Part shown: one piece after another, positions 49,980-54,268 of the stretch
How positions within the stretch are numbered: position 1 is the stretch's first letter
How the letters are laid out: every line of letters starts with the position of its first letter
The notes under the pieces: generated by a model
Databases searched by the model: none
Seen by the model: only the letters and a program-made list of their open reading frames with translations
What the model was told of the DNA's origin: nothing
Made by a program: the position numbers and the translations under genes
NCBI GenBank assembly: GCA_902785325.1
Contig: CACZXZ010000002.1
Location: 31,695-95,694, forward strand
Direction: 5' to 3'
Source: an uncultured Succinivibrio sp.
GTDB lineage: Bacteria; Pseudomonadota; Gammaproteobacteria; Enterobacterales; Succinivibrionaceae
DNA: 64,000 bases

Positions 49980-50198
49980 GCTTTAAAATCTAGCTAAATG
50001 TAAGATTGTTAAGACTTTTGTTGTGACAAGGTTCATAGGTTAATTAAAAGTCATCAATCAATAGAAAATGAAAATTTACTTTCTTTATTTAAAGTAAGGT
50101 AAATTTCAAAATCACTTACCTTCACTATTTCAATACAAGCCAATTTTTATTAATTTGCTTTGAAATTCAGTAAGATAAAAGAATTTCAATTTTTTGTG

Positions 50199-50228
50199 TT
50201 GCAATAAAAATCCTTTTGTATTTATAAT
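50199..50228 (+). promoter_or_regulatory. Promoter of the cysteine operon
   Basis: TTGCAA (50199-50204) and a consensus TATAAT (50223-50228) with an 18-bp spacer. Predicted transcription starts near 50235, about 30 nt before the Cys-rich leader. Confidence 0.55.
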
Positions 50229-50264
50229 ATCTACAAATCATATAGGAAATATAGGAAATAAAAA

Positions 50265-50360
50265 ATGATGTGTTGTTGTAGTTCTTTCTTTATAGGCAGT
50301 GTTATGAATATTTTTGAAGATTTAATAGAAGAAAATGAACATTTACGAGAATATAACTAA
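50265..50360 (+). CDS. Cysteine-rich leader peptide (candidate cysteine attenuator)
   Basis: A 31-codon frame beginning ATG-ATG-TGT-TGT-TGT (MMCCCSSFFIGSV, then an acidic tail) and ending TAA at 50360. AGGAA at 50253-50257, 7 nt before the ATG, is a good ribosome site and better than the A-rich one before cysK. The frame overlaps the first 26 nt of cysK in a different frame. Three successive Cys codons at positions 3-5, directly before a cysteine-synthesis operon, are what a Cys-tRNA-sensing leader needs. GUUCUUUCUUU (50281-50291), just after them, can pair with 50328-50340, covering the cysK ribosome site and flanking its AUG. Stalling at the Cys codons would cover the first arm and expose cysK. 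Comparable overlapping poly-Cys leaders are known in mycobacteria. Confidence 0.7.
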   Translation: MMCCCSSFFIGSVMNIFEDLIEENEHLREYN

Positions 50361-51261
50361 GTTAATAGGTAAGACTCCATTAGTATACTTAAACTCCATT
50401 AAGGAGAAGTATCAGTTACAAGCTAATTTAATTGCTAAATTAGAATCTTTAAATCCTGGTGGCTCACTAAAAGATAGAGTTGCCTTAAGGATCCTAAAAA
50501 GTGCTTTAGAGCACAAGCTTATCAACCAAAATTCCACCATTATTGAACCAACCTCTGGTAACACAGGTATTGCACTAGCTTTAGTCTGCGCATCTTTAGG
50601 CTTAAAGCTTGTGATTGTGATGCCAGATTCTATGTCTCTAGAGCGAAGATCCTTACTTAAAGCCTATGGCGCAAAGCTTGTATTAACTCAAGGTGCTTTA
50701 GGTATGGTTGGTGCCATTGATAAAGCTAAAGAGCTTTTAGCTAACTCAGAAAATGCTTTTATGCCAAGTCAATTTGACAATTTGCAAAACGTAAATTCTC
50801 ATTACTTGACCACTGCAAAAGAGTTGTATCAGGACACCGATGGCAAGATTGATGTGTTTTTAGCAGGCGTTGGTACTGGTGGCACTATAAGTGGTGTAGG
50901 CAAATTTTTAAAAGAGCGTAATCAAAATATTGAGGTGATAGCCATTGAACCTACAGGCGCTCCTATCTTAACTCGTGGCCTTACAGGTCCTCACAAAATT
51001 CAAGGTATTGGAGCCGGTTTCATCCCTAAGATCTTAAACCAAGAGAGCTTTGACAGAGTAATTGATGTTACAGATGCTGATGCTATTGAAGCTACTCAAA
51101 AACTTGCTTTGTACGAAGGTATTTTAGCTGGTATTGCCACAGGTGCAGTATTACATGTAGCCATGAAATTAGCATCTAAAAAAGAGTACGCAGGTAAAAA
51201 CATTACCTTTTTAGTCTCTGATACCGGAGAGCGTTATTTATCCACTCAAGCATTTTTATAG
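50335..51261 (+). CDS. cysK: Cysteine synthase (O-acetylserine sulfhydrylase)
   Basis: PLP enzyme making cysteine from O-acetylserine and sulfide. The 308-residue product has all CysK landmarks: IGKTPLVYLNSI, LNPGGSLKDRVAL with the PLP Lys46, PTSGNTGIALALV, VMPDSMSLERRSLLKAYGAK, the PLP-phosphate loop GVGTGGTISGVGKFL and EPTGAPILTRG. The ATG at 50335 lies inside the Cys leader, with only an AGAAGAAA stretch as ribosome site, so expression probably depends on coupling to leader translation. It is the first gene of a four-gene operon (cysK, methyltransferase, mccB, mccA), with gaps of 2 to 11 bp. Confidence 0.95.
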   Translation: MNIYENITKLIGKTPLVYLNSIKEKYQLQANLIAKLESLNPGGSLKDRVALRILKSALEHKLINQNSTIIEPTSGNTGIALALVCASLGLKLVIVMPDSMSLERRSLLKAYGAKLVLTQGALGMVGAIDKAKELLANSENAFMPSQFDNLQNVNSHYLTTAKELYQDTDGKIDVFLAGVGTGGTISGVGKFLKERNQNIEVIAIEPTGAPILTRGLTGPHKIQGIGAGFIPKILNQESFDRVIDVTDADAIEATQKLALYEGILAGIATGAVLHVAMKLASKKEYAGKNITFLVSDTGERYLSTQAFL

Positions 51262-51272
51262 GGAAAGGCAGT

Positions 51273-52181
51273 ATGAAAACCTATCAAGAAAGTATCACCG
51301 CTAAAATTTGCTCCTTTGTAAGAGCCTATCACAGTGCTTATGCTAAACATAAAATCTATGATGACAGCTTAGCTTATGACTTATTAGGTCAAAACGAATA
51401 TTTAAAAATTGGTAAGCTTATTGAACATAATTTTAATGAAGTTGAGGCTAAAAATGACAGTAACTATTACTTTGATAAAGAGAAGATAGCTCCTGTTGTA
51501 GAGCAGTTTTTAGCACCAATTCCTTTATCAAGACTTGCTTTTGCAAAAGAAAAATATGAGAAGTTTTTATCTTTACATCAACATCAAACCCTACAATTTA
51601 TTGTCTTAGGTGCTGGCTTAGATACCTTTTCATTGACTAATGACAATCATCAAGTTGAAGTTTATGAATTTGATCATCCTAATAGCTTTAGATATAAGTT
51701 AGGTCGCATTGAAACTTTAAATTTAGTGATGCCAAAGAACCTTCACTTTGTGCCGATTGATTTTGAAAAACAGTCTTTAGGTGCTTTATTAAAAGAAAGC
51801 GCAATTAAGCCTACAGTTCCAACTTTTATTACTTTTTTAGGAGTAGCTTACTATCTTGAGCTTGATACTTTAAGACAGACTTTAGCTACATTATCGTCCT
51901 TTTTTAAAGGGGAACTTACCTTAGTTTTTGATTACCCAGATGAAACCACTAAAACCTCACCTACAAACTCTCGGGTTACTAAACTTGCAAAGCTTACAAG
52001 TCAAGTAGGCGAGCACATGGTAGATGGTTTTAGTTACCAACAAATTCAAACTTTACTTTTAGATACCCATTTTAACTTAGATGAACATTTAACCCCTCTC
52101 GACATCGATGAGCGTTACTTTAAAGAGAACTTAACCCTTAAAGCTTATGAGAATGTTCATTTTATTAGTGCAACTTTATAG
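51273..52181 (+). CDS. Class I SAM-dependent methyltransferase (leucine carboxyl methyltransferase-like)
   Basis: A 302-residue cytosolic protein of the LCMT/PPM family: RLAFAKEKYEKFL, the AdoMet motif FIVLGAGLDTFSL, YEFDHPNSFRYKLGRIE, LHFVPIDFEKQSL and FITFLGVAYYLEL. The substrate is unknown. It lies 11 bp after cysK and 9 bp before mccB, each with a GGAG-type ribosome site. In Bacillus the yrrT-mtnN-mccA-mccB operon also couples an AdoMet methyltransferase with reverse transsulfuration. By analogy this enzyme could release S-adenosylhomocysteine as a homocysteine source, but it belongs to a different methyltransferase family and the role is inference. Confidence 0.85.
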   Translation: MKTYQESITAKICSFVRAYHSAYAKHKIYDDSLAYDLLGQNEYLKIGKLIEHNFNEVEAKNDSNYYFDKEKIAPVVEQFLAPIPLSRLAFAKEKYEKFLSLHQHQTLQFIVLGAGLDTFSLTNDNHQVEVYEFDHPNSFRYKLGRIETLNLVMPKNLHFVPIDFEKQSLGALLKESAIKPTVPTFITFLGVAYYLELDTLRQTLATLSSFFKGELTLVFDYPDETTKTSPTNSRVTKLAKLTSQVGEHMVDGFSYQQIQTLLLDTHFNLDEHLTPLDIDERYFKENLTLKAYENVHFISATL

Positions 52182-52190
52182 GAGAAAAAG

Positions 52191-53351
52191 ATGTCACACG
52201 TTTATAAAAATCTTGAGACAGCAGTAATTCACGCAGGTATTTCAAAAGATCCTTTTACTAAATCAGTAAATGTACCAATTTATCAGACCTCTACCTTTGG
52301 ACAGGACAATATCCGTGTACAAATTGAGTGGGAGTATGCAAGAACTGGTAACCCAACTCGTTTTGCTTTAGAAGAGTTAATCAAAGATCTTGAGCAAGGT
52401 TACAAAGGTTTTGCCTTTGCCTCTGGTATGGCTGCAATTAGCGCTGTATTAACCTTATTTAAGACAGGTGACAAGTTAGTTTTATCATCTAATGTCTATG
52501 GTGGTACCTATAGACTTTTAGACAAGGTGTTATCCCATGTTGGTATTAAGTATGAGCTTGTAGATACCACTGATCTTGAGGCTATTAAAAAAGCAATCAC
52601 CCCTGAGGTTAAAGCCATTTATATTGAAACACCAACTAACCCACTTTTAGATATCACAGATATTAAGGCAGTTTCTGCTCTTGCTAAAGAGCATGGTTTA
52701 TTAACAATTGTGGATAACACCTTTATGACCCCATATCTTCAAAGACCATTAACATTAGGCGCTGACATCGTATTGCACAGTGCTACTAAGTATTTAGGAG
52801 GACATTCTGATTTAGTTGCAGGTTTAGTTGTAGTAAATAACGCAGATCTTGCGCAAAAATTAGCTTTCATTCAAAACTCTGTAGGTGCTGTTTTAGGACC
52901 TTTTGATTCCTTCTTGTTAATCCGTGGTATTAAAACTTTAGCGGTAAGACTAGACAGACACACTGACAATGCTTTGAAAATTGCTTTAGATTTAACTTTA
53001 AATAAAGCCGTAACCAAGGTTTACTACCCAGGTTTAAAGTCCCATCCAGGATTTGAAATCAATCAAAAACAAGCTAAAAACGGTGGCGCTATGATCTCCT
53101 TCTTATTAGATGATAAGCACGATGTAAGAAAGTTTTACGCCTCATTAAAACTAATCACTTTAGCTGAAAGCTTAGGTGGTGTGGAGTCTTTAGTTTGCCA
53201 CCCAGCTTCTATGACTCATGCTGCAATTCCTGAAGAGATTAGAAACCACATCGGTATTAAAGAGAATTTAATTAGATTCTCTGTAGGTATTGAAAATTAC
53301 GAAGATTTAAAAGCAGATCTTGAACAGGCAATTGAGAACTCAAGGATTTAA
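52191..53351 (+). CDS. mccB: Cystathionine gamma-lyase/synthase family PLP enzyme
   Basis: Cys/Met-metabolism PLP enzyme of 386 residues. Blocks seen: ETAVIHAGISKDPFTKSVNV, PIYQTSTF, YARTGNPTRFALEELI, FAFASGMAAISAVL, ETPTNPLLDITDI, IVDNTFMTPYLQRPL, the PLP Lys200 in HSATKYLGGHSD and VESLVCHPASMTHAAIPEE. Sequence alone does not fix synthase against lyase. Its neighbour mccA and the absence of homoserine-activating genes favour cystathionine gamma-lyase, giving cysteine, ammonia and 2-oxobutyrate. The symbol is assigned on that context. It begins 9 bp after the methyltransferase gene with an AGGAG ribosome site, and mccA starts 2 bp after its stop. Confidence 0.88.
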   Translation: MSHVYKNLETAVIHAGISKDPFTKSVNVPIYQTSTFGQDNIRVQIEWEYARTGNPTRFALEELIKDLEQGYKGFAFASGMAAISAVLTLFKTGDKLVLSSNVYGGTYRLLDKVLSHVGIKYELVDTTDLEAIKKAITPEVKAIYIETPTNPLLDITDIKAVSALAKEHGLLTIVDNTFMTPYLQRPLTLGADIVLHSATKYLGGHSDLVAGLVVVNNADLAQKLAFIQNSVGAVLGPFDSFLLIRGIKTLAVRLDRHTDNALKIALDLTLNKAVTKVYYPGLKSHPGFEINQKQAKNGGAMISFLLDDKHDVRKFYASLKLITLAESLGGVESLVCHPASMTHAAIPEEIRNHIGIKENLIRFSVGIENYEDLKADLEQAIENSRI

Positions 53352-53353
53352 AC

Positions 53354-54268
53354 ATGCATTATTACAATTCAATGAAAGACTTAATTGGTCACACCCCATT
53401 AGTAAAGATAAATTATGCCTTAAAGGCAACAGCTGGAGTACAGGTATTCTCAAAGTTAGAGCTTTACAATCCCTCAGGCTCTGTAAAGGACAGAACTGGT
53501 CTTTACATGGTTCAAGATGCACTTTTAAAAGGTACTTTAAAAAAAGGCTCTACCATTATTGAAGCTACTGCTGGAAACACTGGTTTAGGTATTGCCTTTG
53601 CAGCTTTAAATCTTGGTATTAAAGTGATTTTTGTGGTCCCTGAAAAGTTCTCAGAGGAAAAGCAAACTCTAATGAAAGCCCTTGGTGCACAGATCATTCA
53701 CACTAAGCGTGAAGATGGTATGTTAGGCGCAGCTGCTAAAGCAAAAGAATTAGTAACTTCCACACCTAATGCTTTATCTTTAGAACAGTTTAAGAATCTT
53801 GCAAATCCTAAAGCTCATTATGAGACCACTGGTGTTGAGATTTATGAAGATCTTGATGGCAAGATTGATTATCTTGTGGCAGGAGCTGGATCTGGTGGTA
53901 CCTATTCAGGAGTAGTTAAATACCTAAAAGAGCAAAATCCTAATATTAAAGGCATTTTAGCTGATCCTGTAGGTTCAACTATGGGTGGCGGTGAACACAG
54001 TGACTATGACATAGAAGGTATTGGTAATGACTTTATTGCTGACACTATGGATATGTCTTTAGTCGATGAGGTAATCAAAGTTAACGATAAGGAAGCTTTC
54101 GATGGCTCAAGAGTACTTGCAAAAACAGAAGGAATTATTGCAGGAAGCTCTACAGGTGCAGCCTTTGCTGCAACTAAAAAGCTTATTGAAAAAGGTGTAA
54201 AGGGCAATATCGTGTTTATTGCTCCAGATAGAGGAGATAGATATTTCTCAAAGAACTTATTTGATTAA
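53354..54268 (+). CDS. mccA: Cystathionine beta-synthase / cysteine synthase family enzyme
   Basis: Fold-type II PLP enzyme of 304 residues, distinct from the cysK product earlier in the operon. It has LIGHTPLVKINYAL, YNPSGSVKDRTGLYM with PLP Lys45, EATAGNTGLGIAFA and GAGSGGTYSGVVKYL. The stretch FVVPEKFSEEKQTLMKALGA with IIHTKREDGM is close to Bacillus MccA (YrhA) as I remember it. It should condense homocysteine with O-acetylserine or serine to cystathionine, which MccB then cleaves to cysteine. A CysK-like activity is the alternative. It starts 2 bp after mccB and is the last gene of the operon, before a strong terminator. Confidence 0.85.
   Translation: MHYYNSMKDLIGHTPLVKINYALKATAGVQVFSKLELYNPSGSVKDRTGLYMVQDALLKGTLKKGSTIIEATAGNTGLGIAFAALNLGIKVIFVVPEKFSEEKQTLMKALGAQIIHTKREDGMLGAAAKAKELVTSTPNALSLEQFKNLANPKAHYETTGVEIYEDLDGKIDYLVAGAGSGGTYSGVVKYLKEQNPNIKGILADPVGSTMGGGEHSDYDIEGIGNDFIADTMDMSLVDEVIKVNDKEAFDGSRVLAKTEGIIAGSSTGAAFAATKKLIEKGVKGNIVFIAPDRGDRYFSKNLFD

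Follow-up and report, generated by a model that had tools for sequence, protein, structure and literature searches.

The region ahead of cysK in the window, as we call the whole 64-kb stretch of DNA analysed here, is in our view a ribosome-mediated, cysteine-responsive translational attenuator of an operon made up of cysK, a methyltransferase gene, a cystathionine enzyme gene and a second cysteine synthase gene (Table 1), a reading to which we give a probability of about 0.65. Its short leader ORF probably acts as a sensor of cysteine shortage. When Cys-tRNA is ample, leader ribosomes would move on past the Cys codons, allowing the helix 50281-50291 : 50328-50340 to re-form behind them, and the same ribosomes would also run over the cysK start; both the re-formed helix and the ribosome traffic would limit initiation at cysK. 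In a Cys-tRNA shortage, a ribosome would halt at codons 3-5 and cover the 5' arm of the helix, leaving the weak cysK site unpaired and clear of traffic, and the operon would be translated. These operons are probably indeed subject to Cys-codon attenuation, and for the window its translational form is the best reading. One operon family appears to carry Cys-codon sensors across a diverse genus with an apparent output that changes between genomes, which, if true, would provide a natural test of attenuator moves between transcription and translation.

Table 1. Features of the cysK leader region and operon, in positions of the window
Feature	Position	Strand	Basis or remark
Promoter-like TTGCAA - 18 nt - TATAAT	50199..50228	+	Pattern scan
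Imperfect palindrome, possible regulator site	50228..50246	.	Comparison of cysK-first operons
SD-like AGGA of the leader ORF	50253..50256	+	8 nt upstream of ATG 50265
Leader ORF, 31 aa, MMCCCSSFFIGSVMNIFEDLIEENEHLREYN	50265..50360	+	ORF reading of the window
Three Cys codons, proposed stall site	50271..50279	+	TGT TGT TGT in the leader ORF
5' arm of the sequestering helix	50281..50291	+	Pairing, minimum-energy fold
Weak SD of cysK, AGAAG	50327..50331	+	3 nt from AUG
3' arm of the sequestering helix, two bases of the cysK AUG (A, U) bulged	50328..50340	+	Pairing, minimum-energy fold
cysK, cysteine synthase A	50335..51261	+	TIGR01139, 398 bits vs cut-off 351
SAM-dependent methyltransferase, LCM type	51273..52181	+	TIGR00027 just above cut-off; PF04072
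Cystathionine gamma-synthase/lyase-type enzyme	52191..53351	+	PF01053; best NCBIfam models below cut-offs
Second cysteine synthase/cystathionine beta-synthase-like enzyme	53354..54268	+	PF00291; TIGR01136 slightly below cut-off

The operon and its leader ORF

The original prediction placed cysK at the head of a cysteine operon, in agreement with the TIGR01139 match of its product and with the cysteine-type enzymes encoded downstream, the third gene specifying a PLP enzyme of Cys/Met metabolism of the cystathionine gamma type. A seemingly similar methyltransferase-mccA-mccB set is known from reverse transsulfuration in Bacillus. The short frame that had been described, beginning MMCCC behind a good ribosome site and ending 23 nt inside cysK, is likewise seen: it starts at ATG 50265, with a second ATG at 50268 and AGGA upstream, and ends with the stop codon TAA 50358-50360, 23 nt of cysK (start 50335) preceding the stop codon and 26 if the latter is counted, in a frame that differs from that of cysK. 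On both strands of the 64-kb window this leader is the sole ATG-started ORF of 5-60 aa whose peptide carries CCC, the one TTG-started ORF of that kind being located within a gene, and an ATG-started ORF with CCC arises in only 3 of 5000 dinucleotide shuffles of 50235-50360. The hallmark of an attenuator, consecutive Cys codons in a short leader ORF ahead of a Cys operon, with a predicted promoter upstream, is thus present.

As a separate observation, positions 50304-50334 of the leader resemble the cysK start at 50335-50365 in 19 of 31 nucleotides. An old 31-nt tandem duplication of the cysK start (50304-50365) was considered and rejected as too weak, 19/31 being reached by 231 of 199,777 random ATG pairs, and a repeat finder reported no direct repeat at 50304-50365.

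Predicted fold and release of the cysK ribosome site

The base pairs that had been proposed by eye are all there, GUUC 50281-50284 facing GAAC 50337-50340 and UUUCUUU 50285-50291 facing GAAGAAA 50328-50334 with one G-U pair; the helix is part of the minimum-energy fold and bulges out the A and U of the cysK AUG, as had been claimed. The fold of 50235-50360 as a whole, suggested at the time as a check, is ordinary in total energy when compared with shuffles (z 0.12), as is that of the leader ORF alone (z -0.45). With a ribosome placed on any Cys codon, the predicted mean unpaired probability of the cysK SD region rises from 0.20 to 0.91, and that of AGAAG alone from 0.16-0.20 in the free RNA to 0.85-0.96 with the ribosome on the first Cys codon, the ranges spanning 12 combinations of transcript ends and three ribosome-footprint edges. 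Among 400 shuffles of the leader with its ribosome site fixed, an equal switch was found in 1 when the SD window was set at -9..-1 and in 11 when it was set at -14..-4, the second and weaker of the two windows tried. In silico, the RNA therefore adopts alternative states that depend on the position of the ribosome at the control codons.

The claim that a ribosome stalled on the Cys codons frees cysK stands for the SD, which opens in the model, but not for the AUG itself, which is not opened by the stalled ribosome (0.65 to 0.53), and a ribosome that merely initiates on the leader already suffices, with a predicted unpaired probability of the cysK SD of 0.79. Masks placed further along the 5' arm give 0.91-1.00. 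Since both the initiating ribosome and the downstream masks open the SD, the opening does not depend specifically on a stall at the Cys codons, and because of the initiating ribosome our confidence in the translational attenuator is slightly lower than it would otherwise be. The model shows that a ribosome held at or close to the 5' arm opens the SD; that Cys supply would determine this position is suggested by the Cys codons and by the relatives described below.

The opening by a ribosome at the leader start also bears on translational coupling, in which ribosomes translating the leader would either melt the helix or reinitiate on the cysK AUG, which lies 23 nt upstream of the stop codon of the leader; leader translation would then raise that of cysK, and a stall at the Cys codons would lower it or act through traffic only. 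The overlap of the two ORFs and the weakness of the cysK SD fit coupling as well, but it would make cysteine synthesis fall under cysteine shortage and leave the Cys run without a role, and the Cys leader of G015 does not overlap cysK at all. We regard coupling as distinctly improbable, and in the translational attenuator that we prefer a stall would raise cysK.

Cys-run leaders in related genomes

Our genus set comprises 19 genomes, 15 of which match the methyltransferase. Operons headed by the methyltransferase gene all have a Cys-run leader in front of it (10 of 10; G001, G002, G003, G005, G006, G009, G010, G012, G016 and G018), with peptides such as ...SLYCCCCCC, ...KTVCCCCR and ...FHCCCQR; an ORF limit of 60 aa misses the leader of G012, which other scans recover. 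Control upstream regions, scanned by a similar though not identical criterion, gave 2 hits before 30 porin genes, 1 before 17 cysS genes and 1 before 17 cysE genes. The porin control covered 30 of 63 porin-like hits, and one of the 2 leaders it gave is itself a likely attenuator; the cysE and cysS hits both come from G008.

Five close methyltransferase-first genomes have retained a leader of 117 nt with the same frame and Cys run, one Cys being replaced by Asn in two of them, while the codons that differ are mostly non-synonymous in 9 of 10 pairs; it thus seems that the place of the Cys codons is conserved rather than the peptide. This pattern also argues against the idea that the window ORF encodes a small functional Cys-rich protein, for instance a metal-binding one, and not a sensor. 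Its three Cys are indeed clustered near the N-terminus, but a Pfam search of the leader peptide gave 0 matches, and we find such a protein hardly credible. The SD-release model finds no support in the ten methyltransferase-first leaders: nine behave in an ordinary way, 21-74 of 100 shuffles reaching their values, and in G005, where 5 of 100 shuffles do so, the predicted release differs little between a stalled ribosome (0.65) and one at the stop (0.57).

The picture is more mixed where cysK leads the operon, as it does in five genomes of the genus (G000, G004, G013, G014 and G015), whose methyltransferases cluster and, with midpoint rooting, adjoin those of four genomes of genus g9 in which the gene order is the same. 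The closest relative of the window's cysK is 57% identical. Among the five operons, a Cys-run leader is found in the window and in G015, where MTFKCCRCCCK ends 77 nt upstream of cysK; the fold of the latter has z -4.3, and the predicted release of its cysK site from 0.09 to 0.60 is reached by 3 of 400 shuffles. The leader MFNLLLYCCR of G013, with Cys-Cys, gives z -2.0 and a predicted release matched by 20 of 400 shuffles. The short ORF of G014 contains a single Cys codon and gives no switch (150 of 400 shuffles match), and no Cys-run leader was found upstream of cysK in G004 or in any of the four g9 cysK-first operons (0 of 4). The original prediction had counted orthologous upstream regions that lack the frame or its Cys codons as evidence against it, and G004, G014 and the four g9 operons, none of which has a Cys-run leader, in part speak against it. 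As to the cysteine-sensing leader as such, the ten methyltransferase-first operons, G015, more weakly G013 and the switch in silico support it, but the overlap with cysK and the pairing 50281-50291 : 50328-50340, which among the relatives compared are seen solely in the window, are not general.

A wider scan for Cys-run leaders gave 10 hits before 73 cysK-like genes, one further gene of the 74 (G033) having been left out where its contig ends. Five of the hits (G050, G022, G039, G021 and G026) look unconvincing, G050 and G021 among them having been folded, and a looser scan added weak hits in G047, G048, G052 and G055.

The cysK-first operons further share a palindrome of the type TACCTA, N8-10, ATAGG, which is found in 8 of the 9 examined and is absent from G041. 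By eye, TTG and T(T/A)TAA elements precede it in 7 of the 8 loci, G004 being the exception. Promoter-like sites as such are not enriched (2 found vs 3.2 expected in shuffles); because such elements and the palindrome are shared among cysK-first loci, however, the transcript may fairly be taken to start near 50235, some 30 nt before the leader ORF. The distance from palindrome to cysK start is 51-55 nt in G004, G042 and G043 and 107-188 nt in G000, G013, G014, G015 and G044, and these differing distances may reflect the insertion or lengthening of the leader downstream of a conserved promoter and ahead of cysK; yet G044 has a long 5' region upstream of cysK with no Cys-run leader and no Cys codons. 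The window genome encodes one Rrf2-family regulator above the Pfam cut-off, whose link to the palindrome is only conceivable.

Such a conserved site could mean that cysK is controlled by its promoter only, for example through a regulator at 50228-50246, and that the leader is a chance or decayed ORF with no regulatory role. Gene order is retained in G004 and the g9 genomes although they lack a Cys leader, the palindrome is kept except in G041, overall folding is ordinary and the frame is conserved in no close relative, all of which would fit. A Cys-run ORF is rare, however, and suits a Cys operon, the SD switch is rare among shuffles, and the unbroken series of Cys leaders before methyltransferase-first operons would be left aside. 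We consider a chance ORF unlikely and retain the attenuator as the preferred reading.

Terminators and apparent outputs across genomes

No terminator-like site (0) was found at 50000-50500 of the window, and Rfam gave 0 matches at gathering score in 11 loci, the window leader locus L245 included, with no riboswitch or T-box among them. Elsewhere the output seems to be a different one. The cysK genes of G008, G009 and G011 are preceded by a poly-Cys leader and, after it, an intrinsic terminator (-14.3, -13.8 and -13.8 kcal/mol, respectively), which looks like the output in place of the ribosome site; G009 belongs to both sets, as it has this arrangement before cysK and a Cys-run leader before the methyltransferase. 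Altogether, 13 terminators were found before 74 cysK-like loci, a clear poly-Cys leader preceding 3 of these terminators. Since the other 10 stand before cysK-like genes that lack a clear poly-Cys leader, and many of them may be terminators of genes further upstream, a terminator by itself is weak evidence.

Nine leaders were folded with the ribosome placed at different points. In the methyltransferase leader of G005 the antiterminator is predicted to win with a ribosome at the first Cys codon and not at the last, and in the cysK leader of G011 with a ribosome at the last Cys codon and not at the first. The other seven keep their terminator or last hairpin in the minimum-energy fold under every mask, though on our own reading some of them show possible antiterminator partner sequences. 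Cys-run leaders are thus common in the genus, and their output is clear in some members only.

These leaders raise the question of whether the window, too, works at the level of transcription, with Cys supply deciding whether RNA polymerase passes through the leader. Because the window has no intrinsic terminator, this would have to take a Rho-dependent form. The leaders with intrinsic terminators before cysK of G008, G009 and G011 and the predicted terminator/antiterminator switching in G005 and G011 are consistent with transcription attenuation, but the region 50000-50500 is devoid of terminator-like sites, and we hold Rho-dependent attenuation in the window to be very improbable. With translational attenuation as the reading for the window, we tentatively propose, at somewhat less than even odds, that the genus has a ribosome-run cysteine regulon in which poly-Cys leaders at cysK, at the methyltransferase/transsulfuration operon and at a porin sense one signal while the output varies between an intrinsic terminator and occlusion of a ribosome site. 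The window would be an extreme member of it, in which the leader overruns the start of its target and traffic and folding are combined.

Comparison with known systems

In trp/his/leu-type attenuators of proteobacteria, a run of control codons in a leader ORF is sensed by ribosome stalling. Their alternative-hairpin logic is matched by G005 and G011, with Cys as the amino acid, whereas the window lacks the terminator that in the trp type lies between leader and first gene and would act on translation start. In the mycobacterial polycysteine leaderless short ORFs of Canestrari et al. 2020, the ribosome site (RBS) is reportedly the target of attenuation.

The original prediction had called poly-Cys leaders established in mycobacteria, and translation attenuation by such leaders is borne out by the available text of PMC13236596 and PMC9031893, in which polycysteine ORFs regulate translation in M. 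smegmatis; that of PMC9094748 treats polycysteine ORFs as conserved in M. tuberculosis. As with these ORFs, the Cys run of the window lies within a short reading frame ahead of Cys genes, and their attenuation through ribosome speed and Cys supply, as the accessible part of these sources presents it, resembles the mechanism proposed here. The window can be grouped with the polycysteine type in that its Cys run precedes Cys genes and the next ribosome site is predicted to be sequestered. The mycobacterial ORFs are leaderless, however, whereas the window has an SD-like AGGA and a predicted leader of ~30 nt, and the phylum is unrelated.

Short ORFs with Cys runs are also reported, in passages of PMC1262725, before cys operons of Mycobacterium and Propionibacterium acnes and before cbs of Bifidobacterium longum, without conserved terminator hairpins. 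According to these passages, their Cys codons lie near the stop, whereas the Cys run of the window lies near the leader start, and in place of a terminator hairpin the window has a predicted helix over the ribosome site; the methyltransferase-first leaders, with Cys near the stop, are closer to those leaders than the window is. The accessible portion of PMC8632094 describes uORFC-8-2, a two-Cys uORF with an intrinsic terminator before cysS of Rhodobacterales, for which Cys transcription attenuation was proposed. On that description it resembles G005, G009 and G011, in which a Cys-codon uORF is combined with an intrinsic terminator; it controls cysS and not Cys biosynthesis, and the window, with cysK and no terminator, is not of this type. 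The available text of PMC2965389 names no Cys leader.

Cys-codon attenuation of cysteine biosynthesis is, in the accessible parts of these sources, described for actinobacteria. In the literature searched, the cysS motif of Rhodobacterales was the sole proteobacterial case of Cys-codon attenuation found, and a search that covered few subscription journals found no report of Cys leaders before Cys-biosynthesis operons of this group.

Cys-rich ORFs before porin genes

Two Cys-rich ORFs were seen before porin genes. In locus L284 (G005:C4), an ORF with CACVCAC lies ~217-388 nt before a porin gene and has no clear terminator; it was inspected and is not counted as a leader. In locus L168 (G008:C10, 3532-3690), the poly-Cys leader MTIDHFNTCCTMCMMCCCAPS... 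stands before another porin gene (PF00267) and is followed by a terminator-like stem with a T run, an arrangement that suggests Cys control of an outer-membrane channel.
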